Assembly: GCA_016935985.1 (NCBI GenBank)
Contig: JAFGPW010000005.1
Location: forward strand, 124,001 to 188,000
Length of the DNA: 64,000 bases
DNA from: Candidatus Woesearchaeota archaeon
GTDB lineage: Archaea > Nanobdellota > Nanobdellia > Woesearchaeales > JAFGPW01
Reading direction: 5' to 3'
The notes below the pieces were generated by a model, which was given only the letters and a program-made list of their open reading frames with translations, had not been told where the DNA came from and did no database searches. The position numbers were made by a program, and so were the translations under genes. How positions within the stretch are numbered: position 1 is the first letter of the stretch; each line of letters starts with the position of its first letter. Shown here one piece after another: positions 1 to 62,591 of the stretch.

Positions 1-2
1 CC

Positions 3-10913: not shown

Positions 10914-10914
10914 G

Positions 10915-13900
10915 ATGACGACGAGACGCGATGACGGACTGAGGACGTTCGCCCGGTCAGCGGTAGTCCTCTGGCTCGTCCTCAACCTCGTTATGCTGCC
11001 GGTCGCGGCCCGCTTCAGCGGCGAGGAGGCGGTCGAGCGGCAGGCGGCAGGGTCGTCCGCCGTCGCAGGCGCGGCGTTCGCCGAGCTGGTCCCGATCCCC
11101 CTCGCCGTTGCGCAGGCGCTCGCCGAAGGGAGCGCATCGGGAGCGCCAGGCATCCCCGGAGGCATCGCGCCCGTCATGCTCGTCCTGCTCATCGTAGGGA
11201 CCAGCATCGCGGCCGCGCGTGCGCTCCCGGGCAGTGCGCTGCGGTCGTGGCTCCCTGCGGCGTCGGCAGTCGCCTTCGCCCTAGCGGCGGCAATCATCGC
11301 GCTCGAGGCAGAGGACGCGCAAGGGTACGTCTACCAGGCCCTCCCCAGCTACGCGAACGTCACCGCGACCAACAACCCGAGCCCGACGCCCTGGGTGCGG
11401 TTCTCGCCCGGCTTCTCGCCGGTACGCCAGAGCACGAGGATCATCAACGACTTCACGAGCCAGGTGGCGGTGCTGCCGGCAGACTTCGACGACCCCTTCA
11501 TCAACGACGACAGCCACGGCACCAACACCTGGAAATTCCCGTTCGTCGTTAACCTCTCGACCGCGAGCTACACCTTCTACACGAACGCCCTCGACAGCGA
11601 TGGGAACACCTTCCCATCAGACCTCCCGCTCGCCATCATCATCGACACCACGCCTCCCCGCGCGGCGCAGCTCCTCTCGGCGCAGGGCGGCAGGACCTAC
11701 CACGACGCCACGGCCGGCACGTGGTACACCAACGCCTCGGCAGTCCAGCTGCAGCTGCGGGTCGAGAACGCCTCCACCATCTGGAGCGGCGCGGTCCAGC
11801 TCCTCGCCGTCTCCGGGAGCTACTACCCCTATGACGCGAGCAGGACGCAGGACGTCTGGACGCCGCCGATATCGCTCCTCGCCGACGACTACACGGACAT
11901 CCCGCTCACCGTCACCGACTACCTGAACAACTCGAACGCGACCACGGTCGCCGTCTACTCCGACCTGACCCCGCCATCAGCCCAGTACCTCTACTACACC
12001 GACGGCATGCAGGTGGGAGACACCAGGCCCCAGGTCCAGGTGAACCTCTCCGACGCCGGCGCCGGCGTGAACGCGAGCTCGGTCGTCATGAGCATCCTGA
12101 ACGCGAACACCATCTACCACTGCACCTGCAATGCGGGGTGCGCGTCGGTCTCCTGCACGGACCCGGCGGCCACGATGACCCTCCTCGGCGGGCTGCTCAC
12201 CATGTCGGTCAACGCCGACATGAACCTCTCGGCAGTCACCGACATCACCTGCCAGGTCACCGCCTACGACAACATCGGTCGCAGCACCATCAGCACGCTC
12301 AACTACCAGATCAACACCGAGCTTCCCGGCAGGCCCGACTTCCAGGTCGAGGACGGCACCGACTACCTGGGGCTCGGCACGCTCTACACGCAGAACAACC
12401 GCTCAGGGCTGACGCTCATATTCGCGAACACGACCTCCCTCGACGCCATCACGCTCTACACCGCGGCGCGGCAGCAGGTGCCGCTCAGCCAGGCCTCCGC
12501 AGACAACCTCACCTTCGTCTACCTTCCGACGGCGGACCTGCAGGACGGCCGGCTCTCGCTCGAGTTCTCCGCCCGGAAGTGGCTCGGCGCCGCCTGGGGG
12601 CCGGCCCAGCAGTTCACCGAGGCCTTCGTCGTCGACACCGAGGACCCGGTGCTCCTCATCCCGTCCTACCAGAACCTCACGAGCACCGGCGGCGTGAACG
12701 TGAGCGGCAGCTTCCTTGAGGACAACGTCGCGACGCTGACCGTGTCAGGCGACGCGACGCCGCAGACGATACCGGCGCCGGCGAACCCCTTCATCCTGCC
12801 CCTCCAGGTCACGAGGCAGAACCAGGACAACACCGTGACCGTCACGCTCACCGACCGCGCCGGCGCGAGCGACACCGAGACCCTGACCATCACATGGGAC
12901 TCGACGCTCCCGCAGATCGCGACGCTCACGAGCCCGACGCACCCCAACCAGTCCGCCTGGTACAACATCTCGGACGTCCAGATGCAATGGGGCGCGGACA
13001 CGGCGGACGTCGCCGGGTACTCGTACCTCCTCACCGCCGACCCCGCGCTCGAGCCCGACACCGACTACCAGACCGACGCCGAAGGGGCCTTCACCACGCT
13101 GTCCTCGAACGTCATCACCTTCGGCCCGTCGGGGACCAAGCACTTCGCCATCCGGGCTGTCGACGCCGCAGGGAACTGGGGGCCGACCGCGCGGTACACG
13201 CTCCATGTCGACGATGACCAGCCGGGGGCGACGCTCGAGAGCCCAGCCTCGCACACCACGACGAACGACCCGCGGCCGACGATCGTCATACGGCTCGACG
13301 AGAGCGTATCGGGGATCGATCCGGGCAGCATCGTCTTCCGGCAGAACAGCAACGACATCGTCGGCTACACCTACGACCCGGCGCTGGGCACCATCTCCTG
13401 GCAGCCGCCGGCGGACGACACGCTCCTCATGGGCGCCGAAGAGCGCACCATCAACCTCTACCTCGAGGTGGCCGACCTCGCCGGCAACCGCCGGACCCTC
13501 ACAGACTACTTCACCATCTCGCTCGACGCGCCGGGCCTCGACGCTATCGACGTCGGCACCACCGGCCTCGGGCCCTTCTCCTACGAGGTCGAGCACCTCG
13601 GCACCTACTCCTACGGCTCAGACTACGGCTACCTGCGGCTCACCTTCGACGAGCCGGTCCGGCTCCTGCAGTCCGACCTCCAGCTCGCTCCCGGCGGCTG
13701 CACGATCGTCGACCAGAGCCAAGGGTTCTACCCCTCCTACTTCACGGTCTATGTCTGCAGGCTCGGCAGCGTGCAGGAAGGCCCGTACGCGCTCTCGCTT
13801 CTCGCCGCCGACATGGACGCGAACGTCAACCCGTCGATCACCATGAACTGGACCCTCGACCACACGCCGCCCGCGGTGTCCCTCTCGTCCCCTGCTGACG

Positions 13901-16900
13901 GCGCGGTCCTGCTGAGCAGGCAGACCGGCTTCGGCTTCGTCGCGACCGATACGGGGACACAGGGGCTCACGTGCGCCCTCTACATCAACGGCACCGCCGC
14001 CGGATCGCCGATAGCCGTGACCTCGGGCATCGCCGCGTCGATCCCGCGCACCCTGCCGTCGGACGGGCCCTACACCTGGCGCGTCGGCTGCACTGACGCC
14101 GCCGGCCCGTTCAACAACGCCGCGAACTCGACGGTCCGCACACTCTCCGTCGACACGAACCCCCCCCAGCTCTACCCCTTCGCCGTCCCGGCCTTCACGA
14201 ACCAGACGCCCTACCTCTTCGCAGGCGTCGCCTTCGACGCTGTCCGGGTCCACGTCTTCAACGACCAGACCTACGCCAGCATGAACACGACCACCTTCTC
14301 GAGCCCCGCCCTGATGGCGAGCTGCGACGTCCTCGCGGCGAACGGGACCTCGGCACGGTTGGAGAACTGCGGCACGGCGCCGCAGGCGGGGCAATACCTG
14401 CGCTTCGACCAGGCGCATTCGGCAGAATATTACGTGTCGGCAGTCACGCCCATCGCGATCTACTATGACCTGACGCTCGACCGGCCGGCCCTGGGAAGCC
14501 CTGCGACCGCCACCCTCTACAACGACCACATCCCCGGACGGTTCAGCGCCGGCCTCGGCCTCATCCCCGGGGCGAACACCATCGAGATGACCGCGATCGA
14601 CGCGGCCGGCAACACCAACGGTCCGCTCGCGCAGGGCGTCTTCTTCGACGGCATCCCGCCGGCGCTCGTCACGAGGAGCCCGACGCTGCCGGTGGCCGAC
14701 AACACCACCGTGATCAGGGTCGAGGTGACGGACGCCGGATCCGGTATCCTCCGCTCATCCGTCGTCTTCACCGTCGGCAACCGCACCTACACCTGCGCAT
14801 CCCCGTCGGACGCGTTCGGCAGCCTCGCCTGCCCCGCCGACGGCGCGATAGCGCACGCCTTCTCCTTCACGCCGACCGGCCTGCCGGACGGCTCCACCAG
14901 TGTCAGCCTCACGCTCACCGACCGGGCGAGGAACTCCCTGTCGACAGCATGGAGCTTCACCATCGACCCCGATCTCGCGCCCTATCCCACCTTCAGCGTC
15001 TCCGACGTGCTCTCGAGCGACACCTCGGGCGCCGAGCACGAGTTCTACCTCGACCAGGGCAGCCCTTGGGTCAACTTCACCTACGCGGCAGACGTCATCC
15101 TCAACCGGTTCCTCGTCGACGGAGCCGACCGCACGGCCAACCTCAGCCTCATCGCGGCGGACCGTTCGTGGGCATACGCCTCGGACCTCGCCGAAGGCCA
15201 CCACACGATCGACATCTACGTGAACAAGTCGCTCGGCTCGGGCGTCTACAGCGACCAGACGATGCACCGCGCGCACGTCACGATCGACAGCGACGACCCG
15301 ACGATCAGCCTCGCCGCCCTCCCGACAACGGCGGTCCCGCACGCGAACATCACGGTCACCTTCTCCGACCTCGCGACCGACAGGATCGAGTTCTCAGGGG
15401 ACATCCAGCCGTCGACGCACACCATATACTACGACGGGCTCGCCTCCGGCCAGGAGACGATACGGTTCAACCTCACCTCGGGCGACGGGAACAAGACCGT
15501 CGTCGCGACCATCCATGACTATGCCGGCCACACCGCGAACGCGAGCGTCACGGTCCTGATGGACACCGCAGGACCGGTGATCAGCAGCCTCGCCTCGCCG
15601 ACCCATCCCGACCAGCAGGCGTACTACGCGGCGACCGACGTGAACCTCATCTGGACCGTCGACGCGCAGCCGTCGGGAGTCGGCGCCTACGTCTACGCCT
15701 TCGACCAGAACGCCACCTCCGAGATCCGATCGGGCACCGCGATACCCACCGGCCAGACCTCCCTCACCACAACGGTCAACGTGCCGTCTGGCCAGGCAGG
15801 CACCTGGTATTTCCACCTCAACGCGCGCGACAACGCCGGCACTTGGGGTGTGACGAGGCACTACACGCTCAACATCGACCGCCAGGCGCCGAGCGTCACC
15901 TTCACCGGCCCCGGCCAAGGCACGGTGACGAACGACCCGACCCCGACCATCACCTATACGATTGCCGATGCCCACGCGGGCGTGAACGCGAGCTCGATCT
16001 CGTTCCTGGTCAACAACCAGCCGGTCCCGGCGGGCGACGGCACCGATTCCTACCGCTTCGACGAGGCGACCGGCGGCCTCACCTACACGCCGAGCGGCAA
16101 CGACACGCTCCTCGTCGGGGCGGAGGAGGCGACGGTCGGCCTCCGGCTCTCGGTGCGCGACCTCGCCGGCGCCCAGCAGACCGCCGACAACGCCTTCACC
16201 GTGTCGCTCAACGCGCCGGACCTCGCGAGCGTCATGATCGGCGATGCGGGGACCGGGCCCTTCCACCTCCTCGACAATGCCGGGACCTACTCGTTCACGC
16301 AGGCGAACCGGTACCTGCGGGCGACCTTCGACGAGCCGGTCGAGCTCTTGGCAGGCGACATCACCGTGAACGGCGCCGCCTGCCCGATTGTCAGGAGCGA
16401 AGGCGGCAGCGCGCCCTTCTTCACGAGCTACGTCTGCGACCTCGGGCCGCTCGCCGAGGCCTCCTACTCCCTCGTCTTCAGGCCGACTGACGAGGATGGC
16501 AACATCAATCCCGGCGCCTCGTTCGGCTTTTCCATCGATCGGACCGGCCCTGCCATCAGCATCATGTCGCCTGACGACGGCGCCATCTCGACCCTGCGCA
16601 CCATGCCCATCGTCTTCACGGCGACCGACGGCCATGCGGGCGCGCTCTCGTGCGGCCTCCTCATCGACGGCACGCAGCGCGGACCCCTCTTCCCGGTGAC
16701 CTCAGGGCTCCAGCACACCTTCACCTCCACCTTCACCGCTGACGGCGCCTACGGCTGGCAGCTCTCCTGCACCGATCTGATGGAGCCTGCCGCGAATCCG
16801 ACCGTCACGCCGGCACGGACGATAACCGTCGACACGACCGACCCGCAGCTCGTCCTCTTCACGCCACGCCCGACCGTGAATGCGACGCCGCAGCAGTTCG

Positions 16901-26520: not shown

Positions 26521-26533
26521 TAGAAGGACAGAA

Positions 26534-29500
26534 ATGGCATACCCGACAACGATGCGGAATGTGAAGGGGAGGGGGTTAGCGCGAGACTTAGTGCTCGTCT
26601 GGCTCATCCTCAATCTCATGCTCATGCCCCTCGCTGCGGCGAGCCAGCCTGCCGGGGCGCTGACGACCGTGTCCCGAGGGACCGACGTGCTCGCCACCGG
26701 CGGGTTCGCGCCGGTCGCGACTGTCGTCTCGCAGCCCTACGGCCTGCCTGCGCAGCCGACGCCCGCCCCTGCCGATACCATGCCGCTCCCTGCCCTCATC
26801 ATCGCGATAGCGATCGCCGGAGCGACAGCCGTCGCCTCGCGCCGCATGAGCGCACAGGCGCTCCCGATCGCCCTCGGCGCGCTCGGCGTCATCGCCCTCG
26901 GGGCTCTCATCGGCGCCCTCGGCGCCGAGACAGCGCACGCCCAGTCCTCCTACTACGGCACCTCCTACGGCGGGATCATCGTCACCAACAACCCGAGCCC
27001 GACGCCCTGGGTGCGGTTCGTGTACTGCATGGTGCCTGACGACCACTCGATCACCTCAGACCAGGGGGTCTCGATCACCCAGTACGGCGTGACGAGCCAG
27101 AACGCGAGCCTCAACACCACCTGGACCTTCCCGATAGCGACGAACCTGTCCACCGGCAGGTACACCTTTGTGACTGACGCCGAGGACTGCTACGGCGCAG
27201 GGAACCGGCTGATCCAGATCTTCACGCTCCCCTTCATCATCGACGTCCTTCCGCCCTACCCGCCGTCGGCAGACCTCGGCCCGAGCTTCCTGCGCGAGGG
27301 CGTGCGCTACACCAACATGACGGCCGTCTCCGTCGCCGTGACCGCAGAGGAGGCGTCCTACGTCCAGGCGCTCATCGGGGGATCGCCTGTCGCGGACCGG
27401 ACGTTTTCCGGCACCTACAACCCCTTCACCAGGGACAGCCTGCGGACCGAGGCCCTCGGCCTCACCCTGCCGGCCGACACGACCGCGGAGGTTACCCTCA
27501 CCGCCGAGGACCGGCTCCACAATCTGGCGAGCGCCTCGTTCATGGTCTACGCAGACACCCAGCCGCCGGCGCTCTCGGCCATAACCCCTGACGGGCAGAC
27601 CCTCGGCAACCGGCGTCCCGCGATCACCGCGAACCTCACCGATGCCGGCAGCGGCATCGACGCGACGAGCATCACCCTCGCCGTCCAGACGCCGACGCGG
27701 AGCTGGACCTGCTCCTACGGCACTCCCTGCAGCGGCTTCGCCCTCCAGTACGACCCGACGACCGGCGTCTTCCGGGCGACGCCCACCACCGACCTCAACG
27801 AGGGGACCACCACCCCGGTGAGCGGGAGCCTCACCGTCAGGGACAACGTCCGGCGGACCGCCACCGGCACGTTCGGCTTCACGATCGACACGACGCTCCC
27901 CGCGCTCGCGAACATGACCGTCGAGGACGGTCTCGACTACCTCAACGGGCCGTACACCGCGAACCGGCAGCCGGACCTCACCCTCTCCTTCGAGGAGCTG
28001 ACCGACATCGTCTCGATCGAGCTCAGGTGCGGCGGGACGCTCGTCGACGCGCTCGAATACTCGAGCGGCAACGGGACCGTCCACACCTACTCGACGAATG
28101 CCTCGCTCGCCGACGGCTCCTACACGGTCCGGGTGCGCGCGCGCCGCGACCTCGGCGGCGGCAACTACGGAACCGAGCAGACGCTCCCCGATCGGCCCTT
28201 CATCGTGGACGGGACGGCGCCCACGATCGGGTTCACCACGCTTCCCCAGGCGGTGGCGGGGACCATCACGCTCAACGGCACCTTCGCCGAGCAGAACCTC
28301 TGGCACATCGACGTGCACGTCAACGGGACGGTAGCGGACATCCTCAACGTCACGCACGGCATCGCCGGGACCTCCTTCAGCACGACGATCGACCTCTCTG
28401 CCTACGGCAGCGATGGCACCTACGCGGTGCAGGCGACGATCTACGACCGTGCGGGGAGCACCGCGAGCGCGAGCGTCGACCTCGTCAGGGACACCGCGGC
28501 GCCGGCGCTCACGATCACGAACCCGCCCTCCGACTACACCTACACCGCGGCGGACCATGTGGTGGTGAACGGCACGTCCGAATACGGGGCCACGATCTCC
28601 ATCGTCTCCAACCACTACGGCGACCTGCCGCCCTACGCGATCGTCGAGCCCTACACCTACGACGTCCATGTCGCGGCCTCGGCATTCCTCTCGACACAGC
28701 TCAGCATACCGGCCGGCGCGACCGTGCGCTTCATCAACGACGGAAGCTTCGCCTACAACGTCTCAGGCAGCGGCGTCGACCTCGCGCTCCCGGCGGACGG
28801 CACCACGAGCCAGGCCTTCGGGGCGCAGGCGACCTACACGCTCAGCCTCGTCTCGCCAGCCGACGGCCAGGTGCTCTCGCCGGCCCCGCTCGTCATCGCC
28901 GTGCGCGCGCAGAAGACGGGCTTCTCGGTCGACGTCCCGCTCGCCTCGGCGGACGACGGGCTCATCAACCAGCTGGTCGTCACGGCGACCGACCCCGCAG
29001 GCAACGACGCCTCCCGTGTCCTCACGCTCCTCGTCGACACCTCAGCACCGACGATCGGCCTCGATCTGCCGGAAGGCCAGGCGACGAACCAGGAGACCTT
29101 CACCATCCAGGCGACGACGAACGACCGGGCGAGCTGCGACTTCTCCTGGGACGGGAACGCCTGGACGCCCATGCAGCCGTCAGGCGACAACCGCACGCAC
29201 TCGATCGGCGTGAACATCTCAGCGATCGACCCCTCGTTCAGCCCGACCGGCTACTACGCCGAGCACGGCATCGTCATCCGCTGCAGGAACGTCGTCGGCA
29301 TGACCGCCACGCAGCCCTATACGATCGCCGTCGATACGACGCTCCTCTCCATCACCGCCGCCTACTCGGGCCTCGGCTCCTACGTCATCGTGCCCTACAA
29401 CGTCATCATCGTCGACACCGACAAGGAATCGATGTGCCGGTTCAACGACATCTATGGGGCAGAGCCGGCCCCCGACGGCTATGAGAACCTCCTCCACAGC

Positions 29501-32500
29501 GTGTCAGAAGGGTTCGCGACCCATCACGAGTACAGCTATGAGGGCCTTGACGGGCTCAACGGGCTGCACGAACTCTATATAGACTGCGTCGACCGCGCCG
29601 GCAACCCGGCGGAGAACCCCTCCTGGGTCAGCTTCACGCTCAACACGAGCGACGTCCTCAGGATCATATCCGGGAGCCCGAACGCGACCACGCTCGACCA
29701 CGACAGCCCCATCCTCGTCGTGCGGACCAATTCGGAGGCGGCCTGCGACTACTTGGAAGGGCCGATAGGATTCAGGACCGATTTCCCGGCGCCGACGCCG
29801 GAGACCGACGAGCAGGGACGGGTCAGCTGGGTCTATGCCGCGCCGCAGTACGGCCTCTCAGACCGGCAGTACGACTACAGCGTCATCTGCGACTCGGGTG
29901 TCCACGTGACCGAGACGACGCTGCGATTCACGATCGACACGAGCCCGCCAGGCCCGCCCTATTTAGATTTCCCGGCAGACGGCCAGCGCGTGCAGTCGGC
30001 CGTCCCGGTCTCAGGGACCGCTGACAGCGACTCGACCAGCGTCGTGCTGCGGATCGACGGCGACCCGGTCGCGTCGGCGGACGTGACCGCGCTCCAGACC
30101 TATGCGGCGGCCCTCGGCCTTGACGGCTACCCGGACCGGAGCTACACGCTCTCGGCGGTCGCCTACGACGCGCTCGGGAACGGCCCCTCGCAAGCGCGGT
30201 CTATCACCATCATCAAGGACACCGTCTCGGCGACGCCGAGCCTCCTCCCGCTCACGCAATACACCATTACCACGCCGGTCACGGTCTCGGGGACCGCAGA
30301 GCCCGGCGCCACGGTATCGCTCTACTCGAGCACGACCACCGATCCCGCTGTGCAAGGGACGTTCGAGACGGCGGCAGTCGCGAACGGGCAGGGCGGCTTC
30401 AGCGCCCAGGTCGGCCTCGATCCCGGCCAGAACCACCTCTATGCGACAGCAGTCGACCAGCTTGGCAATCCGGCGAGCGACAGGTCCAACTACATCTCCA
30501 CGCTGCTCGACAGCACGCCGCCGACGGTAGCAGGACTCTATCCCGCTCAGGCGGACATCGTCTCGCCCGACGGGCTCCAGCTCCAGGCGACCGTCTCCGA
30601 CAACCAGGGCATCGCCTGGCAGGGTGTCGAGATGCGGGTGAACGGCAACCTCGTCGGCTACCAGCGCGTCCCCTTCCAGGACGCGATCACCTATGCGCCG
30701 CCGCGCCTTTCCGACGGCCAGTACACGCTCAGCGTCAGGGCCCAGGACCTCGCCGGGAACAGCCTCACCGCGAACGCGACCTTCACCGTGAGCTCGGTCG
30801 CGCCGGGAGCACCTGCGCTATCCTTCGACGGCGTCGCCGAGATAGGGCTCATCGAAGGCTTCATCAACGCATCATCGCCGTCGATCGGCATCGCCTACGG
30901 CGAGCCGGTGACGGTCACCGTCGCGACGCTCGACGGCCAGAGCATCCTTCCCGGGCTCCAGACCGCCGACAGCCAGGACTATGCCTATGCCGCAGCCAGC
31001 CTCTCCCCAGCGCCGCACACCCTGGTGCTCAGGGCCGAGAACGCGATCGGCAACGCGAACCAGCGCAGCTTTACCTTCACGGTCGACACGACGCCGCCAT
31101 CGGTCAGCATCAGCGGCGCGATCGACACCACCGTGAGCACCGCCGATGTCACGGTCTACGGCTCGTATGGTGAGCCGAATGTCCATGCCTTCCTCCTCGG
31201 GACCGAGCCCTTCGCGGACACCGAGTACGGCTACTCGAGCTTCTCGAAGACGACGACGCTATCCGGCGGCGACGGCACGCATCCGGTCACCGTCACGATG
31301 ACGGATAAAGCAGGCAACACCGGCTCGGACACGATCACCTTCGACCTCAGGAGCGGCGCGGCCACGATGACCCTTGCCGCTATCCCGACCCCAAGCCCCA
31401 ACCGGACGATCATGGTCTCCGGCACCACGGTCCCGCAGCGGCAGGTCGCCATCCGCGCGAACGACGCGGTCCACACCACGACGTCCGCCGCCGACGGCTC
31501 GTTCAGCTACTACCTCACCGCCTCCTCCGGGCTTAGGGAGGGCTACAACACCGTCACCGCGAACGTGACCGACGCCTACGGCAGGACCGGCACCGCTGCC
31601 CAGAGCCTCACGCTCGACTGGAGCGGGCCCTCGATCGACGCGATCACGCCGGGCGAGGGCGATCGCGGCCCGTACACCTCGGTCTCGATCACCTTCAGCG
31701 ACGCGACCGGCATCGCGCCCGCCACCCGGCGACTCTACGTGAACGGCCTCGAGACGGTCATCGACTCCTTCCAGAACGGCGTGCTGACCGAGACGAACTC
31801 GATCCAGGCGCTTCCCGAGGGCCAGCACACGGTCAGGGTCTACCTCGAGGACACGCTCGGCACCTACACCGACCATACTTGGCGGTTCGTCAAGGACTAC
31901 GGCGCTCCGGTGATGACGCTCGCGAGCCCGGCGAACGGCTTCGTCAACCGTCTCCAGCCGGAGCTTCGCATCACGATCGACGCGGCTGACGAGGTCTTCA
32001 GCCCCGAACTCGCCGACAGCGCGACCGGCGCCATGGTCGAGCTCGTCAGGTCGCACCCCACCGAGTACCGCTACATCCCGACCGGCCCGCTCTCCGCAGG
32101 CGCCGCCTACAACCTCAGCATGCGCGCCCAGCGCAACGGCAACTACGCCGAGCTCGACCGCCAGGTCATCGTCGATACCACCCCGCCGGTCGTCGCGCTC
32201 TCGACCGCCAACCTCCAGAGCCCCCAGCGGCCGGGGACGATCACCGTCAGCGGCACCATCACCGACACCTATCCCGAGAACGTCACGCTCAACGGCATAT
32301 CGGCGTCTGTCCAGGCCCAGACCTTCCAGCTGCAAGCTTTCGGTCTTGTCCCGCCCTACACGTTCATCAACGCGACAGGCCGCGACAGCGCCGGCAATGC
32401 CGACTCCGACACGAGGAATATCACGGTCGACGGGACCATCAGCGTCGACTGGAGCGTCCCGCCGCTCGTCGCAGGAAGCCAGCTCATCCTGAACGCGACG

Positions 32501-35500
32501 GCGGGAGAGCCGGTCAGCTACACCGTCTACGACGATGGCGTCTTCGCGGCGACGGTCGACTCGACATCCGGCATCCTCAGCCAGGCCGTGACGCTCGAGC
32601 CGGGGCCGAACACGATACGCCTCGTGGCAGAGGATGCGGCAGGCAACGTCCACAACACGACCCAGATGACCTACTACGATGACCAGGCGCCCGCCATCGG
32701 CATGGTCGCGCCGATGGGCTATACCATCGACACGACGCCCACCATCACCGCGACCATCACCGACGCCCGCCAGGTAGGGAACGTGACGGTCGAGATAAAC
32801 GGCGCGACGCGCTTCACCCAAGCTGGGATCTCCGTGACCACCTACCAGCTCAGCTACACCGTCTCGCCGGCGCTCGCGAACGGCACCTACAACGTGACCG
32901 TGCGCGCGGATGACGGCCTGCGGACAAGCGCGCGAGAGGGCCAGTTCACGATCGACACGAGCATCCCCCAGGCGACCGTGACCCCCGCGGGGCTCGTCAA
33001 CGACAACCGGACGACGATCACCCTCGCCTTCACCGAACCGGCCGTGGTCTCGAACGCCCGCCTCTCAGGCTCGGGCCTTCCCACCACCGCGATACCGTTC
33101 ACGACGGCCGACGACCTGGTCCACACCTTCGCCATAGGCTCGGCATGGCCCGGAGGGCTGCCGGACGGCGATACCTACACGCTCGCCTTCGAGTCCCGCC
33201 GCCTGTCAGGGTCGGGCGGCACCGCCTACGCGAGCCACTCCTTCGGCATCGATACCCAGGCGCCGAACCTCACCATCGCTGTCGATGAGGAGATCGCCGG
33301 CACCGCGATGCGGACCGTCTCGGGCAGCTACCGCGACCCGCACATGGCGTCACTGCTCATCTGGGGAGACCTCGCGGCGAACGTCACGCTCGGCCAGGGC
33401 GAGGTGGTGAGCGGCAGCACGGCAGGCTACGCGGCGAACGTGACCCTCTCCGGCGCCGACGGCGCCAAGGCCGTCTATGCGACGGCGACCGACACCGCCG
33501 GGAACAGCCGCACCGTCAGCACGACCCTGCGGCTCGACACCACGGCCCCGACGCTCGTCATCACCCATCCGCAGGACGGCTCCTCCACGAGCGCCGCAGG
33601 GACGCACGTCAACGGCACGACCGAGGCCGGCGCCACGGTATCGGCGGTGAACAACCGCTTCGGCGGCGACCTCTATACAGACCCGGTCGCCGACACCTAT
33701 TCCTACACGGTCGAGATCGTGAACTCGGCGTTCGCGCCCGCAGGGCCCTTGAGCGTCCCGGAGAACAGCACGATCACCTTCGTCAACCGCGACTACCTCG
33801 CCTACACGATCCAGGGCACCGGGCTCACGCTCCCGATCGCCTCGCGGGGGACCGCTGCCCACACCTTCACCGCGCAGGGCACCGACAGTCTCGCCGTCAT
33901 GCTCGGCATGACCGTCGTCTCGCCTGCGCCGCTCGGCGTGACCGTCAGGGAGGCGGACACCGGCTTCTCCATCTGGGTCCCGCTCGCCGACGGCGTCAAC
34001 TGGCTCTCCGTGACCGCGCAGGACCTCGCCGGCAATTCCAACACCACCACGCTCCAGCTCACCGTCGACACGAGCCCGCCGCAGATCAACCTCACCCAGC
34101 CGGCGACCGGCGCGACCAACCAGGAGAGCTTCCTCATCTCTGTCGCGACGGACGACACCGCATCATGCGTCTTCTCCTGGCAGCCCGACTTCGCCATCGA
34201 GTGGCAGATGGCCCCGAACGCGCTGGACACCGTCCACACCGTCACGGTCAACGTCTCAGACGCCGACCCCGGCTACAACGAGGACGACTACCTCCAGACC
34301 CTCTCGCTCCACGTCCGCTGCGCCAACCCCATTTCCGGGACGACCGCCACGGCGTTCCCGGTGAAGGTCGACACCACCGACCTCTCCATCCTCTCCGCCG
34401 TCTCAGGGCTCGGCTCCTACTTCATCGCTCCCTATGACACCATCACCATAACCACGAACAAGCTCTCGCGCTGCAGGTACAACGACCTCTACCAGGGGAT
34501 CGAGCCGTCGCCAGTCCCGTATGGCGAGCTCATCCACAGCGTCTCCGACGCCTTCGCCGCCCAGCACCAGCACACGATCGCGCTCGAGGGCGTCAACGGC
34601 CTGCACCAGCTCTATATAGACTGCATCGACGAGGCGGGCAACACCGCCGAGAACCCCTCGTGGCTCAACTTCACCGTCAACACGAGCGAGCCGCTGCGCA
34701 TACTCCAGAAATCGCCTTCAGGCACCCTCACCTACAGCGATCCGACGCTCGTCGTCGTGACCAACAACGATGTCGCCTGCCAGTTCCGCCACGACGGCCC
34801 CGGCGCGGTCTGGCAGCAGCCCACCGAGACCTACACCGCGACCGAGGACACCGGCAGGATCCTCTACTACCACACCTTCCAGACCGCCGGTCTCGCCGAC
34901 CGCGACCACACCTTCTCGGTCCTGTGCAGCTACCTCACCGACACCATCGCGTTTGCGGTCGACACACAGGCGCCCCAGACGCCGGTGCTCACGAGCCCGA
35001 CGGACGGCACCAGGACCGACGGCACGGTGACCGTGTCCGGCACCACCGATACCGATGCCGCGACGGTCGCCATCCGCGTCGGCAGCACCGCGATCGCGAC
35101 CGTGAACGTCGCTTCCCAAGCATTCTCCTACGACCTCGACCTCTCCGGCTTCAACGACGGCCCGCACACGGTCTCCGTCACCGCAGACGACGTCGTCCAC
35201 AACGGCCCTTCCGCCCCCGCCACGCGGACGGTCGAGCTCGACCGCGTCTCTGAGGAGCCCTGGCTCGCCCCGCTCCCCGCCTACACCAACACGACCGCGG
35301 CGCAGGTCTCCGGCACCGCGGAACCGGGCGCCGGCGTCGTCATCTACCGGACCGACGCCCCAGACGGCAACCTGGCAGGCGCCCCGGTCGCGGTCGCCTC
35401 CGCGAACCTCCAAGGCAGCTTCTCAGCGACCGTGAGCGGGCTCGCCGAGGCGACGCACTACCTCTACGCGACCGCCCAGGACGACCTCGGGAACCCGACG

Positions 35501-41500: not shown

Positions 41501-44500
41501 GGCAACGGCAGGACCGCGTATGCCGAATCGGACGGGAGATTCTCCTACACCTTCACGCACCTCGACGGCCTCGTCGAGGGGCTCAACCGCTACACCGTCT
41601 CGGTCACCGATGGTCATGGCAGGACCGCGACGCGCGACCGCGCCTTCGTCACCGATTGGACCGGCCCGCAGGTGCTCAGCATGGCCCCCGGACCGGGCGA
41701 TGTCGGCCCCTTCCACACCATGACCGTCGTCTTCGAGGACAGCGCCGGCCTCGACCCGCTCTCCCTCGAGCTCGACATCAACGGCAACCCCACGCTCGTC
41801 GACCTCTTCCAGGGAGGCACCCTCACCGAATCGATACTCCTGCTCGACAGCGGGCGCCAGGAGGCGACGGTCAGGATAAGCGACGGGCTCGGCAACCCCT
41901 CATCCTACTCATGGGGATTCACCATCGACCGCTCAGCGCCGGCGATGGCCTTCCTCGCGCCGGCCTACGGGTTCACGAACGTCACCCGGCCGCACATCGA
42001 GGTCTCCATAGACAACCCCGACCAGGTCTTCAGCCCCACGCTCGAGGACGCCGACGGGAACCTGCTCGAGCTCCTTCGGACCACGCCCGCGGCGTACCTC
42101 TACCGGCCGATCCTCGAGCTCGCGCCCGGCAGGACCTACCTCTTCACGATCCGCTCCCAGCGCAACGGCAACTACGCGACGCTCCACCACGACATAACGG
42201 TGGACCAGCAGCCGCCGACAGTCGCCCTCGACCGGGACAGCCTCCAGAGCCCCCAGCGGCCGGGACCCGTCGACGTCACCGGCGCCATCCAGGACGAGCA
42301 TCCCGACCGGGTCCTGGTGAACGGCCTCCCTGCGGCCCGGTACGCCGGGACCTTCTCCTATCCAGGCCTCCCGCTCACGACGCCCCTCACCCAGGTGACC
42401 GCGACCGGCTACGACCGCGCCGGGAACAGCCACACCGACGCGGCGACCGTCATCGTCGACGGCTCGCTCACCCTCGCCTGGACGCTCCCGGCAGTGACCG
42501 ACCAGGCGGTCCTGAACCTCACCGCGACCGCGGACGAGGAGGTCGGCTATACGATATACCAGAACGACGAGTACGTCGCGTCCGGGACGAGCGCGAGCGG
42601 GACGATCGCCCAGCGGCTCGACCTCGAGCCCTGGACCAACAGCATACGGATCGAGGCTGTCGACCGGGCGGGCAACACCTACAACCAGACGCGCCAGACC
42701 TACTACGACGCCGAGGGACCGCAGATAAGCCAGACGAGCCCCTCCGGCTACATCACCGACACCACGCCCGAGCTGCGCGCGAGGATCGTGGACGATCGTG
42801 TCATCAGGAACGTGACCGTGCTGCTCGACGGGACGCTGGAGTATAGCGCGAACGTCGGCGGGAGCACCTACGAGCTGCGCCACACCCTCGACCCGCTGCC
42901 GAACGGCACCTACGCGGTGACCATCCGGGCCTGGGACGACTACCAGCAGGGGTCGGCGGTCTACGGGTTCACGATCGACACGAGCATCCCCCAGGCGACA
43001 ATCACGCCGTCAGGCGTCACCGCCGACAACCAGACCGACATCACCGCCGTCTTCACCGAGCCGGTGATCATCACCGACGCGCGCCTCGCAGGCCCCGGCA
43101 TCCCCTACGCCAGCCAGGCCTTCACGTTCGCCACGACCGACAACCTGACCTTCACCCACGACCCCGGCACGCTCGCGGACTCGACCCTCACGTCCGAGTA
43201 CCTCCTCTCGTTCGCTGCCCGCAGGACGAGCGGCTCGGGACGGCAAGGGACCTACGAGCAGCGCTTCGCGGTCGACACCCGGCCGCCTGACGTCACCCTG
43301 CGGTCCGACCTGACGGCGACGAGCGGCTCGAGCGTCACGGTCGCCGGCACCTACCGGGACGACCGCATGGCGGCGCTCGTCATCGGCGGCGACATACTCT
43401 CCGACGTCCCGATAGCGCCCCTCATCAGCGGCTCCGAGGCGTCGTTCGAACGGACGGTCTCCCTCAGCCCCGGCGACGGCGTCAAGAACCTGACCGTCAC
43501 CGCGACCGACACGGTCGGCAATGCCAGGACCGCCTGGACGACCGTCGTCCGCGACAGCACGACGCCCTACCTCATCCTCGACCCGCTGCCGGCCCTGACC
43601 TCATTGCGCTACCTCACGGTCTCCGGCAGCGCGGAGTGCGGCTCGCTCATCACCATCAACGTCAACGGCGTCAACCAGGTGGTCGAGCCGCTCGTCGAGC
43701 AGCAGACCTCGTTCACCGAGCGGGTCTCGCAGCTCGCCTTCCAGCACCAGTCCCTCACCGTGCCGGCCGGCGCGACCGTCACGCTCGACAACCAGGACGA
43801 CCTCGACTATGACCTCGCCGGCTACCAGGCGGCGACGCTTCCTTCCGGCGGCGAGCGGACGCTCTCCTTCCCGACGATAGGGTCCTATTCCGTCAGCCTC
43901 GTCCAGGCAGGCGAGACCCAGGACACGCTCTCCATCACCGTCAGGAACGTCTCGGACTCGTTCTCGCACGCCATAGAGCTCACCAGGACGACCGCGTCCT
44001 CGCCCAACCCCAACAGGATCTACGTCACCAGCAGGGACGCGGCAGGCAACAGCGCGAGCGCGACCGTGAACGTCCGGTCCGACCGGACCGCCCCCTTCCA
44101 CACGGTCGCGGTCCCGACCGACGGGTCGACCACCGGCGACACGACGCCCGCGATCGAGGCGGAGATCGAGGACGAGTACGACATCGACGAGTCGAGCATC
44201 AGGATGCTCCTCGGCCCGACCGTCCTCTACCAGGACGGCACCGGCCTCGCCTCCTACTCGCCGGCGCCGCTCGACCCCGGACGGAAGGGGACGCTCGCCT
44301 ACACGCCGGAAGCCCCGCTCCCCGAAGGCACCCACACCATCACCCTGCAGGCGCGGGACATGGTGGGCAACCTCCTCTCGGTCGACGACTGGCAGTTCAC
44401 GATCGACCTCGACAGCCCCGCCCGGCCCGACATCTACATCGGCGGCGCCTTCGAGGCGGACTACACGAGCTCGCCGAACCCCACCATCCGCCTCGTCTTC

Positions 44501-47500
44501 AGCCAGGCGGTGGACATACGGACGATAGCCGTCGATTCCCAGACCCCCGCGCTGCAGGCGAACAGCGAGAACCGGGAGTTCACCTACACGGTCCAGCCCC
44601 TCACCGAGGGCGAACATGCCATCAGCGTCTCGGCGAGCAGGCACAACGTCGCCGACGCCCCGGTCGGCGGGCCCTACACCAAGTCCTTCTCGGTCGACCT
44701 CGCGCCCCCGGCGGTCACCATCGACCAGGGCCTCCCGACGGCGGTCGCGGTCCCGAGCTTCAGGGTGGAAGGCGGCTGCACCGATGCGGTGGGCATCGCC
44801 GCCGTCCAGGTCCACGAGCTGAACCAGGCGCCGAGGAACGCGACCTGCGTCTCCGGCAGGTACGCCTACACGCTCACCCTATCGCCGACCGACGGGCAGA
44901 AGACCGTCGTCGTCACCGCGTTCGACCATGTCGGCAGGACCGACATGGAGCTCACCTCGGTCGTCCTCGACCGGACGCCGCCGACCATCGACCTCTCGGG
45001 GCCCGCCGAGACGACCGACCCCCTCGTCGAGCTGCTCATCACCACCGACGATGACGCCGAACGGATCGAGCTGCGCGACGATACCGGCGTGCTCGCCACG
45101 ATCGAAGGCGTCACGCAGACGAACATCGCGTACAACCTGACCCTCGGGAGCGAAGGCACCGCCTGGCTCCATGCCACCGCGTACGACGCGGTCGGGAACA
45201 ACGAGTCATCAGCCCCCTTCCCGATCCTCCTCGACAGCATCGCGCCGCGCATCGGGACGGTCGTCCCGGCGGCGAACACCGCGATGCGGGACCTCGATAC
45301 CATCAGCGTCACTCTCATAGAAGCGGACTATGAGTCAGGCATCGACCTCGCCGCTTCGGGCCTCGCGCTCTACGACCCGGTCATGACCCTGCTGCCGGTG
45401 CCGGAATCGGACGACGGCGAGGACACGCTCGCCATGGGCCTCGCGGGAACGACGCTATCGAACGGCCTCTACACCCTGCGCATCACCGCGACGGACCGCC
45501 TCGGTAACACGCGGGTCGAGGACCGGGCGTTCACGATCAACGACCAGGCACCGCTCATTGCCCGGACAAGCCCGGCCTCGGCAGTCACGTACGTGAGCAG
45601 CGCCGCGCAGACGGTCGCCGGCACGGTCGCCGGCACCCACCCGCTCGCCGGCCTCGTCCTCTCAGGGTCTGGTATCACCCAGACAATCGCCTCGGACTAC
45701 GGCGCGTTCTCCTACGGGCTTTCCGTCCCGGCGACCCCTGGGACCCATGCCTACCTCCTCACCGCGACCGACGCTCTCGGGAACGTCGGCCAGGACGGCT
45801 TCTCGTTTGTCTTCGACAACACGACCGCGATCACCGTCCAGGCGCCGGCGCGGACGAACGAGGGGAGCATCACCGTCACCGGCACCTACGCCGAGCAGAA
45901 CCTCGCCTCGATCGTCGTCACCGTGAACGGCGTCCCCCATGCGGTCCTCCCCGCAACCCAGACCACCTACTCATTGCCCGTCGACCTCACTGACGGCGTG
46001 AACACCATCGTCGCGACGATAACCGACCTCGCCGGCAACACCGCGGACGCGAGCGCGACGACGGTCCTCGACGAGACGATCGGCGAGCCGACGCTCGACT
46101 ACATCCAGACCCCGCGGAACAGCACGCGCGCCTCGATCACCGGCACGTCAGACCTCGACACCTGGGTCACCCTCTGGATCAACAACGTGCCGCGCCAGAC
46201 GACATTCATAAGCTCGACCCTCCCAACCGTCACCCTGGCGCTCCAGGACAACCGCTTCGTGCCGGCGACCGCCACGGTGCCGATCGGGACGACCGTCGTC
46301 ATCCGCAACAACATGATGGTCGACGTGACGGTCGTGACCGGCATCGCCGCGCCCGCGACCCTCCCGCCGGGCGGGGAGACGAACGCGACCTACAGCGCCG
46401 CCGGGCCCTTCGCGGTCGTCGCGAACACGAGCATACCGACCGTGATGACCGCCACCCTCTCGGTCACGCCGATCTCGAACGCCTACTCCTTCCCCGACAT
46501 CGACCTCGGCTCGCCGCTCAACGACTATTACTATGTATGGGCGGTCGCCCGCGACCTCGCCGGGAACGAGCGCCAGAGCCTCATGCGCACCGTGCTCCTC
46601 GACGACAGCCCGCCGCAGGTCTCTGACCACTATCCGGCGAAGGGCCATACCGTGCCCCTGGCGGAGAGCATCTCGCTGCGGCTCACCGACAACCAAGGGG
46701 TCGTGCCCTCGTCGATCATCCTCGACGTGAACGGCACGGAGATCACCCTCGCCTCAGACGTCCTCACCTATGCGGGCGACGTCCTCACCTATGCCGGCGG
46801 GCTCGCGACCGGCCTCTACCAGATGTCAGTCACGGCGCGCGACGCCGCCCAGAACCCCGTCTTCGACTCATGGTACTTCGCGATCGACTCGAGCATGCCC
46901 TCGCAGCCGACGATCACCTTCTCCGACGAGATATGGGTCAGCGGGACCGCCTACGTCGCCTCGGCGCGGCCGACCGTCACCATCCAATTCCAGGAGCCGG
47001 TGACCGAGGTCACGGTCGACTCCGACGCCGCGATATGGCTGCAACAGTCCTACGGCGACACCCGGTACGTCTACGAGCACAACGCCGCCCTCGCCGAGGG
47101 CACGCACGCCTTCTCGGTCACCGCCCGCAAGCTCGTCGTGGGCGAGAGCAGCCCGCAGACCTTCACCGAGGATTTCCTGGTTGACACCCGCGCCCCGCAG
47201 ATCGTCCCCCTCTCGGTCGACGGCTCGACCGACCTCGACGGGATCGTCATCACGAACAACAACCCGAACATCACCCTGCGCTACACCGAGCAGCACATGG
47301 GAAGGATCCACATCGGCACGGTCTGGATGAACAGCCCGCCTTCAGGCACCGATGTCGAGGTATCGACCGGGGATGTCGTTCTCCAGGAGGGCCAGAACAA
47401 CCTCCTCATCGAGGCCTACGACCTGCTGGGGAACAGGAACCAGACGATCCTCCCAATCACCGTCGACCGGACCCCGCCGCGCGTCACGCTCTCCTCGGAC

Positions 47501-50500
47501 GTCGAACAGACGCGCCAGGGCAGCGTCCAGATCCAGGTCACGCTCGACGCGGCCGAGGACATCCGCGTCTACGACAATGACCAGTTCATGCGTGCCGAAG
47601 GGCAGCAGACCGGCAACTACACCTTCAGCCTCGCGTTGCTCCAGAACCAGAACAACAACATCTACGCGAACGCGACTGATGAGCACGGGAACTGGGCGCT
47701 CTCGAACGAGCTCGATGTCCTCCACGACAATCTCGTCCCCGAGCTCGTCTCGACCTCCCCGGCGAACCTCTCCCGCAGCAACGACGTCGACTACGTCGAG
47801 GCCGTCCTCTCTGACCGGACCTACGGCGCGGGCATCGACCCCGACCAGACGACGATCGCGCTCGCGCTCGCCAACGGCACCGCCGTCCCCGGCCAGGTCT
47901 CCAAGGCGGCCGTCGCGAACGGCTACCGGCTCAGGTTCCAGCCCTCGGTGCCGCTCGAGTCCTACGCCGTCGCGAGCACCTTCCGGGCGACCGTCACGGC
48001 GGCCGACGAGCTCTCCAACAGCGTCACCTTCCCCTTCGAATTCGTCGTCGACATCAGGGCGCCGAACATCATCGTCACGCATCCGTCCTCGAGCCCCCGC
48101 TACACCAACACCACGAACGAGACCATCCAGGGACACGTGGTCTCGCAGAACCCGATACCCACCTTCCTGATCGCCGGCGTGCAGGTCCCGCTCATCGGCG
48201 GCGGGTTCCTCCATCCGGTCGTCCTCCAGCAGACCTCCCAGCAGCAGAGCTACAGCCTGCGGGCGACCGACAGCCTCGGCAACATAGCGGACACGAGCGT
48301 CTCCTTCATCTACGACGGTACGGCGCCTACGCTCACCCTCACGGTCGTGACGCCCACGAACGAGAGCCAGCAGGTGGTCACCGGGACCTACGGCGACAAC
48401 CTCGGCATCGAGGGCATCGCGCTCTCCGTCGTCCAGGACCAGGACGGCGACGGGATGCCGGAGACCGTCCCCTACGGGGTCGTGTTCGATTCCGACACCG
48501 CCTGGCACGCCGACCTGACGCTCTACGACGGTGAGAATGTGGTGACCGCACGCGCGACCGACCACGCCGGGAATGGGGTGAGCGTCACGAGGTCGATCAC
48601 CCTTGACCAGGACATCGCGAACCCCTCGATCGACCCCCTCCCTGCCTTCACGAACACGCCGATCGACGTCAGCGGGACCATCGAACTCGACACGACCGTG
48701 GAGCTCTGGATCAACAACCTCCTGCGCGACTCGCGTAGGATCAGCTCGACGCTCCCTCCGCAGACGGTCTCGATCGGCACTGCGCTCTCCCCCCAGGACC
48801 TGACCCTCGAGGCCGGCACCAACCTCACGTTCCAGAACACTCTCGGCGTGGACGTCACGCTCGGCGGCGCCTTCTCAGGCGCCATACCGCCGGGAGGCAA
48901 CCGCACCTTCTCCGGCCTTGTCCCGAACACCTACACCTACACCATCACCACGCCGGTCTACACGCTCACCGGGACGGCGACGGTCCAGCCCAGGAGCACC
49001 CGATACGCCTTTACCGGTGTCAACCTCTCCTCATACGCCGCCTACAGCGGCAACCGCTACCTGATCAGGACACGGGCGCGGGACGACGCGGGGAACGCCG
49101 CCTGGAGCGGCACCCGGGAGGTCAGGTACGACGACGAGAAGCCCGAGATTCTCGGCCTCTCGCCCGGCGACGGCAACTTCATCGCCGAGACCTCGACCGC
49201 CATCAGCGCGATCCTGCAGGACAACCTCCAGCTCAACGCCTCCTCGATCGCCTTCGAGCTGGACGGGCAGCCGCTGCAGTACACGTTCGACGGGACGACG
49301 CTCCGCGCGGATGCGGCGAACCTCTCCCAGACCGAGCATCGCATCCGCATCGCGGTCTCGGACATCATCGGGAACACCGCGGTCTCGGACACGACCTTCA
49401 CGGTGAACATCCTGCAGCCCGCGCGCCCCGGCGTCACCTTCTCCAACCAGACGCTCCTCGGCGAGCTCCGGTACACGCGGGATACCCAGCCGTTCCTCGC
49501 CGTCAACTTCACCGCCCAGGTGACCGACGTCACGGCGACGCTCGACGGCCAGCCGCTCGAGCTCCTCTCGAGCCAGAACAGCACCGGCTTCCTCTTCCGG
49601 CCGACCGCGGCGCTGAACGATAGCGGCTACCGCCTGACCGTGCGGGCGCGCCGGCTCGTCTACGGCCAGAGCAACTACGGGGAATGGACGTACGACGTGA
49701 TCGTCGACACCGTGCGGCCGGCCATCTACACGAGCCTGATCGACGGCGCGGACTACGTGCCCGGCATGCGGATCGCCGCCACCCAGCCGACGATCGAGCT
49801 CACCTACTCCGAGGCGCACCTCGCCACCGTCAGCGTCGGCTCGCAGGACTACGGCGACCTCCCGTCAGGCGATTTCCTCAAGCTGCCCATCCAGAACATC
49901 CAGCTGACCGAGGGCGACAACTACCTTCCGGTTACCATCAGGGACCGCGCTGGCTGGGAATACGCAGCCCCCGACACGCACCTCGTCAGGGACACCACCG
50001 CCCCCACCATCACCCTCATCGCCGACCGGGCCTCGACGCGCCAGACAGCTGTCCAGCTCACCATCGGCACCGACCGCGCGGACTGGATCACCATCCACAG
50101 GAACAACCTACCACTCATGCCGCTCGAGAACATCGCCGGGACCTATCTCATCACCGTGCCGCTCGAGCCGGACATGATCAACCACTTCTACGCGACCGTC
50201 TACGACGACCTCGGCAACAGCAGGGACTCAGGCATCGTCCGCGTGCTCCAGGACTCGCTCGCCCCCGCGCTCACGGCCTACCTGCCCGGCGAGAACGCGC
50301 GCCTCGCCGCGCTCACCCAGGCGCAGGCGACGCTGGACGACCGGCCCTTCGGCGTCGGCATCGACCTATCGGCCTCGCGCATCGAGGTCCTCGACGCGCA
50401 GGGCAACGACCGCGGCGGCATCAGGACGCATGACAGCGAGAGCACCCTGTTCCTTTCCGGCCTGAGCCTGCCCGACGGCGACTACCTGCTCCGCATCACC

Positions 50501-57362: not shown

Positions 57363-58730
57363 ATGAGAACGATTGACGGACGTGCGCGCGGCCTCATCAC
57401 CGCATGGGTAATAATCAATCTGTTCGTGCTGCCGCTCTCCTTCGCCACCGATAGGCCCTCACCTGCGGCGCTCGACACCGCGGAGATGCATACCGTTGTA
57501 TTCCAATCCTTCGCAAAGGTCGTGCCCGCTAGGCAAGGAGCGCACGGCCTCGTGTCCGAAGGGGTGGATGGGCTGGGGGGTGCCCGAGGGTCGGGATCGT
57601 TCCTCATCTCGCTCTGGTTCCTTGCGATAGCCAGCCTCTACGGCGCAGGCCTTCTCGCGTCCCTCGCCTTCTCAGGGTCTAAACGAGGCATCATCGAGGT
57701 CCAGTTCAACTGGGTCTTCACGATCATCATCGGCGCGCTCCTGCTCGTCTTCTTCATATCCATCGTCAACAAGCAGCGGCAGGGCGCCGACCTCACGGTG
57801 TCGTCGATTATCCTCAGCGACCTCAACTCCATCCTCGTCGGGTCGAAGGTCAGCACCGGCACGCTCCGCCTGGTGCAGTTCCCGGAGGCGACGCTCGGTT
57901 TCTCGTGCGACGAGTACTACGTGAACGGCATACCGAAGCAAATCAAGGAGCGCACCATCTTCGCTCCCGACTCGATAAAGGGCGAGTCGCTGCTCGTCTG
58001 GGCGGAGGATTGGGGGCTTCCGTTCAAGGTGACCAATTTCCTCTACGTGACAAGCCCGGAAGTGCGTTACGTGATATACAACCTGGGGGGCGGCTCGGTC
58101 CTCGCCCGGGAGCTGAACGAAACCCTGCCTGCAGAGATAACGAAAGAGGTCGTAACAGATCTCAATGATCTCTACAACCTCCCTGACCAGAACAACTACA
58201 AGGTGCGGATCGTCCTCTTCGGGTACGGGGATTCCGTCCCGCCGATCCCGACGGACCTCATGAACTCGATGCCTGACGGCGAGCTCACTGTCATCAACAT
58301 AACCGTCACCTCCTCTCCGGAGACCTCGCCGCTCGACGGCTATGGAAGGATCGACTGGTGGGAGAAGGAAGGGACGGGCTTCGCGCTCCGCGGCTCGAGT
58401 CCCTTCATTCGGAAGGAGAGCGTCCATGCGGCGGTCATCGCCGAAGATTTCGAGACCTATGAATGCATCATGGAGAAATCCTTCCAGCATGCGAACCTCG
58501 TCGCGCAGGTGTACCTGAACCGGTCCGATACGCTCCGGATATGGCATCAGGACCATCCGCCGCTCAGATGTGCGGGTTACCACGACACGGCAAGGACTGC
58601 TCTTAACGCGATTATAGCGAACACCGAATCCTATACCTCCACATCAGTATCCGACGTATTCACGCAGATCCAGTCACTCAACGAGAACAACGACCTGCTC
58701 GAGCTCTACAGCTGCTCGCTCATCTATTGA
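57363..58730 (+). CDS. 455-aa membrane protein: giant-type anchor fused to a pilin-like core
   Basis: I place the start at ATG 57,363, six bases after a GTGAT ribosome site and clear of the upstream gene. An in-frame ATG at 57,258 would overlap that gene by 85 bases. Helices at residues 10-28 (LITAWVIINLFVLPLSFA), 79-103 and 116-134 match the spacing of the anchors of the two downstream-extending giants. The third helix is itself preceded by KRGIIEVQFNW, which resembles the beginning of a class III pilin. The remaining 320 or so residues form a soluble outer domain with few cysteines (SCDEYY, YECIMEKS, LRCAGY, YSCSLIY) and no motif I can assign. The fusion suggests it shares membrane sorting or assembly with the giants. 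Function unknown. Confidence 0.83.
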   Translation: MRTIDGRARGLITAWVIINLFVLPLSFATDRPSPAALDTAEMHTVVFQSFAKVVPARQGAHGLVSEGVDGLGGARGSGSFLISLWFLAIASLYGAGLLASLAFSGSKRGIIEVQFNWVFTIIIGALLLVFFISIVNKQRQGADLTVSSIILSDLNSILVGSKVSTGTLRLVQFPEATLGFSCDEYYVNGIPKQIKERTIFAPDSIKGESLLVWAEDWGLPFKVTNFLYVTSPEVRYVIYNLGGGSVLARELNETLPAEITKEVVTDLNDLYNLPDQNNYKVRIVLFGYGDSVPPIPTDLMNSMPDGELTVINITVTSSPETSPLDGYGRIDWWEKEGTGFALRGSSPFIRKESVHAAVIAEDFETYECIMEKSFQHANLVAQVYLNRSDTLRIWHQDHPPLRCAGYHDTARTALNAIIANTESYTSTSVSDVFTQIQSLNENNDLLELYSCSLIY

Positions 58731-62532: not shown

Positions 62533-62591
62533 CGGAGTATCCCCTGATGCTGCATGCTGATACGCGCCGTCGCTGCCATCAGCGGATTGCA

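Follow-up and report, generated by a model that had tools for sequence, protein, structure and literature searches.

Giant fibres of tandem Ig domains are known from SiiE of Salmonella (PMC6272769, PMC5466336), and an adhesin of Mobiluncus mulieris reaches 7,651 aa (PMC10619420). Among the Nanohaloarchaeota, SPEARE and other giant proteins range from 5,998 to 9,409 aa (PMC6642349, PMC10266531), with published examples of 9,409 and 8,880 aa (PMC10266531), and in the bacterium Apilactobacillus kunkeei the consecutive giant genes Giant1-5, encoding 3,000-8,000 aa, make up several per cent of 1.5 Mb (PMC12863079). It is well established that type IV pilus loci of archaea can encode large putative adhesins, the large proteins being either S-layer-like or DUF2341/PilY-like with a putative role as tip adhesins (PMC4858521). 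In DPANN archaea, coiled-coil proteins occur in type IV pilus-like loci (PMC11291902) and pilin-rich dark-matter islands have been described (PMC6393860); the VARTIG modules of Thermococcales combine a hypervariable C-terminal Ig domain with toxin-system-like downstream genes (PMC8416519).

The window analysed here, a stretch of 64,000 nucleotides from a Candidatus Woesearchaeota genome, encodes three giant proteins (ORF1, ORF2 and ORF3) that resemble each of these systems in part. SiiE, the M. mulieris adhesin and GhpA of Aureispira (PDB 9flw, 9flx) are likewise long surface chains of Ig-like domains, and SiiE and GhpA are the nearest structural matches of a predicted ORF3 model; however, the giants described here are archaeal, have nested super-repeats with cupredoxin-like inserts, carry an N-terminal leader/hairpin, are linked to pilin-like genes and are adhesins by prediction, and no type I secretion genes are seen with them. 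The nanohaloarchaeal giants also come from DPANN archaea, are similar in size, contain Ig-like domains and have been proposed to contact a host, but the present proteins differ from SPEARE in having no LamG domain, no ATPase-like intracellular domain and no C-terminal transmembrane (TM) segment, and the locus differs as well. The archaeal type IV pilus loci likewise encode large secreted proteins beside pilin-like genes, whereas here there is no ATPase/TadC pair and no DUF2341 match, and the proteins are several times longer. Pilin-like genes also accompany surface proteins in the DPANN loci and islands, which are distributed across the cluster 2 DPANN including Woesearchaeota, but the pilus-like loci encode CpaF, TadC and coiled-coil proteins where this locus encodes Ig/TSP3 giants and no ATPase. 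Giant1-5 are similarly specified by consecutive giant surface-protein genes but are bacterial, have beta-solenoid heads and are unrelated proteins; VARTIG modules are archaeal and also begin with a large Ig protein, whereas here it is conserved pilin-like genes that come after. Taken singly, Ig adhesins of giant size, giant genes in succession (PMC12863079), giant proteins of DPANN archaea and large proteins encoded in archaeal pilus loci (PMC4858521) are already known. In the open-licence papers searched we found no description of their combination, of a locus that spans the order and has its own marker, of the nesting of super-repeats or of the inserts resembling cupredoxins, which does not prove that no description exists.

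A preliminary description of this DNA had reported three frames on one strand with gaps of 1 and 13 bases, the last encoding an 8,808-aa protein, and had assigned more than 80% of the window to them. All of this is borne out: the frames lie as listed in Table 1, ORF3 is uninterrupted, and the computed share is 82.7%. The first frame, given as at least 10.9 kb, is indeed open, but it is cut by the window edge and its start lies outside; with the flanking contig added, ORF1 spans C5:117883-134913 and encodes 5,676 aa from a candidate GTG start. ORF2 is intact. A fourth Ig-bearing gene, P4, starts 31 bases past the end of ORF3, and ORF1 to P4 occupy 62.8 kb, or 4.5% of the 1.398 Mb genome (10 contigs, 92% complete). 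The window contains no Rfam matches and no tRNA.

Table 1. Features of the giant-protein locus (window coordinates; aa, amino acids).
Feature	Position	Strand	Remarks
ORF1, C-terminal 3,636 residues	3..10913	+	Ig arrays and Cys-rich C-terminus
ORF1, part beyond the window			N-terminal leader, CarboxypepD_reg-like and Cys-rich domains, B domain (residues ~1170-1480)
ORF2, 5,201 aa	10915..26520	+	Leader, two further hydrophobic segments, Ig array, Cys-rich C-terminus
ORF2 leader and two hydrophobic segments	10915-11334	+	As in ORF3
ORF2 super-repeat 1	12808..15417	+	~895 aa, residues 632-1501
ORF2 super-repeats, other copies	15472-18099, 18136-20841, 20872-23532, 23542-25209	+	Last copy partial
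ORF3, 8,808 aa	26534..52960	+	Leader, two further hydrophobic segments, Ig array, C-terminal domain
ORF3 leader and two hydrophobic segments	26534..26953	+	Leader WLILNLMLMP; basic loop between segments; proposed membrane anchor
ORF3 long super-repeats (three)	28334..33349, 33380-38377, 38417-43372	+	~1,670 aa; 44% aa identity
ORF3 short super-repeats (three)	45167..47581, 47660-50107, 50189-52489	+	~830 aa; 31-35% aa identity
ORF3 degenerate cupredoxin-like modules 1-4	28571..28909, 33614-33952, 38636-38980, 43625-43948	+	
ORF3 degenerate cupredoxin-like modules 5-7	46142-46471, 48674-48991, 51161-51475	+	
ORF3 C-terminal 153 aa	52499..52957	+	CGDGxCxxGExC motif, then putative globular tip domain
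P4, 1,225 aa	52992..56669	+	Signal peptide, Cys-bearing Ig-like domains
Pilin-like protein, 221 aa	56677..57342	+	KRRA|Q then hydrophobic helix; conserved between P4 and marker
Marker, 455 aa with leader added	57363..58730	+	~350 aa in relatives; QFNW motif
Pilin-like protein, 173 aa	58732..59253	+	KMGE motif
Pilin-like protein, 198 aa	59237..59833	+	NRA|QTEVLGL
Further short frames	59996-60238, 60511-61383, 61380-62480, 62547-62750	+	Pilin-type N-termini
Short frames, continued	62747-63106, 63103-63435, 63432-63662, 63659-64150	+	

The view that a small archaeon here encodes giant surface proteins built of Ig repeats is supported by Pfam, by AlphaFold and Foldseek and by the sequons discussed below. 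The two halves of ORF3 match Pfam Big_13 at 270.6 and 273.9 bits, with further matches to Glucodextran_B, Big_3_3 and others, and Pfam Ig matches reach 120 bits in ORF2 and 66 bits in the part of ORF1 inside the window. Structure prediction had been suggested as a check, and an AlphaFold model of one ORF3 segment (residues 636-1111, from a 30-row alignment) is all-beta with a mean pLDDT of 86. Its top Foldseek matches are GhpA (9flw) and SiiE (2yn5/2yn3), and a Deinococcus S-layer chain is also among them; the TM-scores are low, as expected of flexible multi-domain chains, so that Foldseek supports the kind of protein and no specific relationship. A phmmer search of one ORF3 half against the PDB gave no match. 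By Pfam, and in ORF3 also by the model and Foldseek, the giants contain long tandem arrays of Ig-like modules.

The arrays are hierarchical, with modules of ~95 aa (a rough period, obtained for ORF3 by counting linker motifs) nested in larger super-repeats. The super-repeat periods come from a fixed-offset BLOSUM scan; comparing each giant with itself by BLAST gave no repeats that could be used. ORF2 has four full super-repeats, 39-43% identical to one another in amino acids, and one partial copy, and in ORF3 three long units are followed by three short ones; at 31-44% residue identity, the copies reflect old expansions. The reach of 0.4 micrometre estimated earlier is a matter of arithmetic, ~90 modules of ~95 aa at roughly 4 nm each; fully stretched, ORF3 would reach up to ~0.35 micrometre. 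ORF3 also contains seven inserted modules, one per super-repeat unit and one between the two arrays, whose PDB profile matches are predominantly cupredoxin-fold chains (51 of 55, best E 6e-5) and which match Pfam Cupredoxin_1 weakly. All seven lack the copper-ligand set (His, Cys, His, Met/Gln), and we conclude with moderate confidence that they resemble cupredoxins in a degenerate form.

The same N-terminal leader, WxxLNLxxxP followed by a conserved Phe, is present in ORF1, ORF2, ORF3, the marker and a 1,863-aa protein encoded upstream. Copies are found at window positions 57363-57700, at C5:97070 and C5:117883, and on contig C7 (G000:C7:23374, 25192, 35243), where the leader profile detects weaker copies on a second set of large proteins. 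The marker carries the leader here, and the markers of relatives do not. In appearance it is a module for export or anchoring that is specific to this lineage. The idea that it is an order-wide sorting signal was dropped, as matches were found in just 6 of 60 genomes, this one included. The two hydrophobic segments and basic loop that follow it in ORF2 and ORF3 suggest that a hairpin anchors the N-terminus while the array lies outside the cell, a topology predicted from hydropathy. At the other end, ORF1 and ORF2 terminate in Cys-rich domains, and the C-terminal domain of ORF3 is rare in the order, with matches in four of 139 other genomes. None of the three has a C-terminal TM segment, and domain searches found no known binding domain in them.

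The giants are also rich in N-x-S/T sequons: ORF1 contains 172, compared with 67 in shuffled sequences (z 15.5) and 67 for the reversed motif, ORF2 contains 79 (42 shuffled, 45 reversed) and ORF3 113 (72 shuffled, 55 reversed), the reversed motif being at or below chance. Together with the leader and the Cys-rich domains, this enrichment points indirectly to an extracellular location, and the giants are probably N-glycosylated. All three are very acidic. Directly 5' of ORF1, between it and the gene for an A-domain protein, lie genes for an STT3 oligosaccharyltransferase, a glycosyl transferase of family 4 (GlcNAc-1-phosphate transferase type) and a group 1 glycosyltransferase (L014:4966-12289; G000:C5:108966-116289).

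Downstream of the giants, P4 has TSP3-type acidic (Ca2+) repeats, a C-terminal TM segment at residues 984-1002 and a basic tail of ~220 aa, and it has no match among phage records. It is followed by a run of short frames with pilin-type N-termini that extends past the window to about C5:192666; by pattern, such N-termini occur in 58% of the downstream ORFs versus 8% of control ORFs, and several of the small proteins have class III signal-type N-termini by the same kind of evidence. One of them (window 61380-62480) combines a pilin-type N-terminus with a TSP3 repeat match. In its AlphaFold model (pLDDT 93.9) the marker starts with a helix of 57 residues, like that of pilins, while a fold search with its globular part gave no significant PDB match, so that the name 'pilin' is used here on the basis of the N-termini. 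The pilin-like families of the locus are unlike any Pfam family. No assembly ATPase or TadC platform is encoded in the locus; four ATPase/platform loci are found elsewhere in the genome (contigs C4, C6, C7 and C9), and a prepilin peptidase gene is on C8. A second small unit lies at L016:13616-17034 (G000:C5:201616-205034) and consists of a pilin-like 165-aa gene and, after it, a gene whose 965-aa product matches Laminin_G_3, Kazal and TSP3.

The preliminary description treated the three giant genes as a stand-alone set, but they make up the 5' half, here enlarged, of a locus that is conserved and that we define as an A-domain protein, a Cys-rich B protein, the TSP3/Ig membrane protein P4 and about a dozen pilin-like genes; they are accordingly not necessarily three independent adhesins. 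Of 145 genomes of the order, 118 have the marker, mostly as a single copy, and it went undetected in ~27, part of which may reflect incompleteness; a class-wide sample of 111 genomes has it in 46. Its named relatives are nearly all from Candidatus Woesearchaeota or Nanoarchaeota records, on which ground the window is assigned to the order Woesearchaeales. Upstream sequence of 5 kb or more was available for 57 loci; a P4-type protein precedes the marker in 51 of them, 47 contain the B domain and 41 the A domain. The largest ORF upstream of the marker in these loci has a median length of ~2,000 aa and reaches at least 6,000 aa, the highest lengths being lower limits because the locus pieces are 20 kb long. 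The present locus includes the P4-type protein, the pilin-like gene and the marker, and one of its large upstream proteins carries a B domain.

In this genome the conserved Cys-rich B protein takes the form of ORF1, whose residues ~900-1600 match 44 proteins at E < 1e-4. Fusions of the B and P4 parts occur in many genomes, and G039 has a single 7,516-aa frame with the P4 part at its end; here B (ORF1) and P4 are separate, and ORF2 and ORF3 are extra giants in between. The modules of ORF3 belong to the same Ig family as the P4-type proteins of relatives. Between families of the order the upstream proteins vary from ~700 to more than 5,900 aa and are encoded by one to four genes.

From the features that were computed (the Ig arrays, the super-repeats, the conservation of the locus, the sequon enrichment and the pilin-type N-termini) we infer the topology, the assembly or co-assembly, the adhesive role and the identity of any partner. 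The reading that we favour, albeit with modest confidence, is that the giants act outside the cell as Ig-like fibres, probably N-glycosylated, which serve for contact and whose genes are the enlarged front half of a conserved surface-appendage locus. ORF2 and ORF3 would be additional giants grown through duplication of super-repeats; the giants would be exported, with ORF2 and ORF3 held at their N-termini by the leader and two-segment hairpin, and the chain of ~95-aa modules would reach outward with the C-terminus outermost. P4 would be the Ca2+-repeat, membrane-anchored Ig protein encoded next, and the genes 3' of it would provide pilin-like subunits, assembled probably by a type IV filament machine encoded elsewhere. 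The most likely job would be reach-and-hold contact with a host cell, a partner cell or a surface, with which the bridging to a host or neighbour proposed earlier is compatible. The absence of an ATPase from the locus, of known binding domains from ORF1-ORF3 and of a PDB match for the globular part of the marker, and the rarity of the ORF3 tip domain in the order, sit less easily with this reading.

A broader proposal can be offered more tentatively: that the Woesearchaeales and part of the class possess an undescribed appendage with a base of about a dozen pilin-like subunits and no ATPase of its own, on which the conserved Cys-rich B protein and the Ca2+-repeat Ig protein are displayed, these proteins being lengthened to 5,000-9,000 residues in individual lineages by duplication of Ig super-repeats. 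We know of no account of the molecular means by which most DPANN archaea hold other cells, and this appendage, if it exists, would be a main organelle of contact in an order for which, likewise, no means of attachment is known. With a locus in ~80% of the sampled Woesearchaeales, a recognisable marker and highly variable giants, there are concrete candidates for tests; the locus also illustrates how giant proteins may grow by duplication of whole super-repeats.

The main rival is that B, P4 and the giants form an S-layer or a thick outer coat, which the small membrane proteins would anchor and which the additional giants would thicken instead of binding partners. A nearly order-universal locus with a single-copy marker would also suit an envelope structure, the C-terminal TM anchor of P4 resembles the S-layer-like proteins of Pyrobaculum pilus loci (PMC4858521), and both the Deinococcus S-layer chain among the Foldseek matches and the sequon enrichment fit. 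We nonetheless consider such a scaffold rather unlikely, because the size range of the upstream proteins and their division among one to four genes are unusual for a lattice protein, the marker is undetected in some genomes (perhaps partly through incompleteness), and it is pilin-type genes that come next.

The acidity of ORF1-ORF3, their potential for glycosylation and their lack of a C-terminal TM segment would also fit a secreted, Halomucin-like protective or water-holding matrix that is neither anchored nor adhesive. This is improbable given the predicted N-terminal hydrophobic hairpin of ORF2 and ORF3, the ordered Ig arrays and the conserved linkage to membrane-anchored P4 and the pilin-like genes. 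A large Ig protein at the head of the locus is reminiscent of VARTIG (PMC8416519), and the giants could be imagined as delivery arms of a VARTIG-like or polymorphic-toxin-like conflict system, but no toxin or immunity gene was recognised and the downstream genes are a conserved pilin-like set rather than a variable one, which leaves this explanation very little room. Even less probable is a SPEARE-type protein, in which an Ig/LamG ectodomain is joined to a cytoplasmic VirB4/TraG-like ATPase for secretion into, or predation on, a host: the DPANN lineage, the size and the Ig content agree (PMC10266531, PMC6642349), but ORF1-ORF3 and P4 have no ATPase, protease, nuclease or LamG domain match, and ORF1-ORF3 have neither a C-terminal TM segment nor a cytoplasmic domain. 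Assignment to the SPEARE family failed on two features, an intracellular ATPase/helicase-like domain behind a TM segment and a laminin-G domain, both of which were absent.

The frames themselves are sound. The earlier observation that they contain no internal stops is confirmed, ORF3 having none where ~171 would be expected from base composition, while the other five frames contain 54-510 stops along its length. GC content at codon positions 1/2/3 of ORF3 is 0.60/0.51/0.92, and GC3 is 0.90-0.93 in ORF1-3 compared with 0.85-0.90 in adjacent housekeeping genes, that is, equal or slightly higher. ORF1-3 are confirmed as genuine coding frames, beyond chance, and the numerous long antisense ORFs are by-products of high GC. 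Simple assembly duplication is disfavoured because the DNA repeats of the giants are too divergent, at ~60-79% identity to one another. Although the genome is a draft in 10 contigs and long antisense ORFs are common at high GC, an artefact of assembly or ORF calling is scarcely credible in view of the missing stops and codon-position bias, the Ig homology over nearly the whole length, the divergence of the super-repeat copies in protein and the comparable giants in independent assemblies.

Such giants recur across families of the order, so that size by itself is unexceptional: Big_13-bearing frames in other families encode 9,180, at least 8,977, 8,257, 7,516, 7,165 and 6,826 aa, and some are located away from the marker. 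The two longest are both in genome G134 (G134:C28:8181-35720, 9,180 aa, and G134:C52:18466-45396, at least 8,977 aa and cut by the contig end), on contigs other than that of its marker gene.
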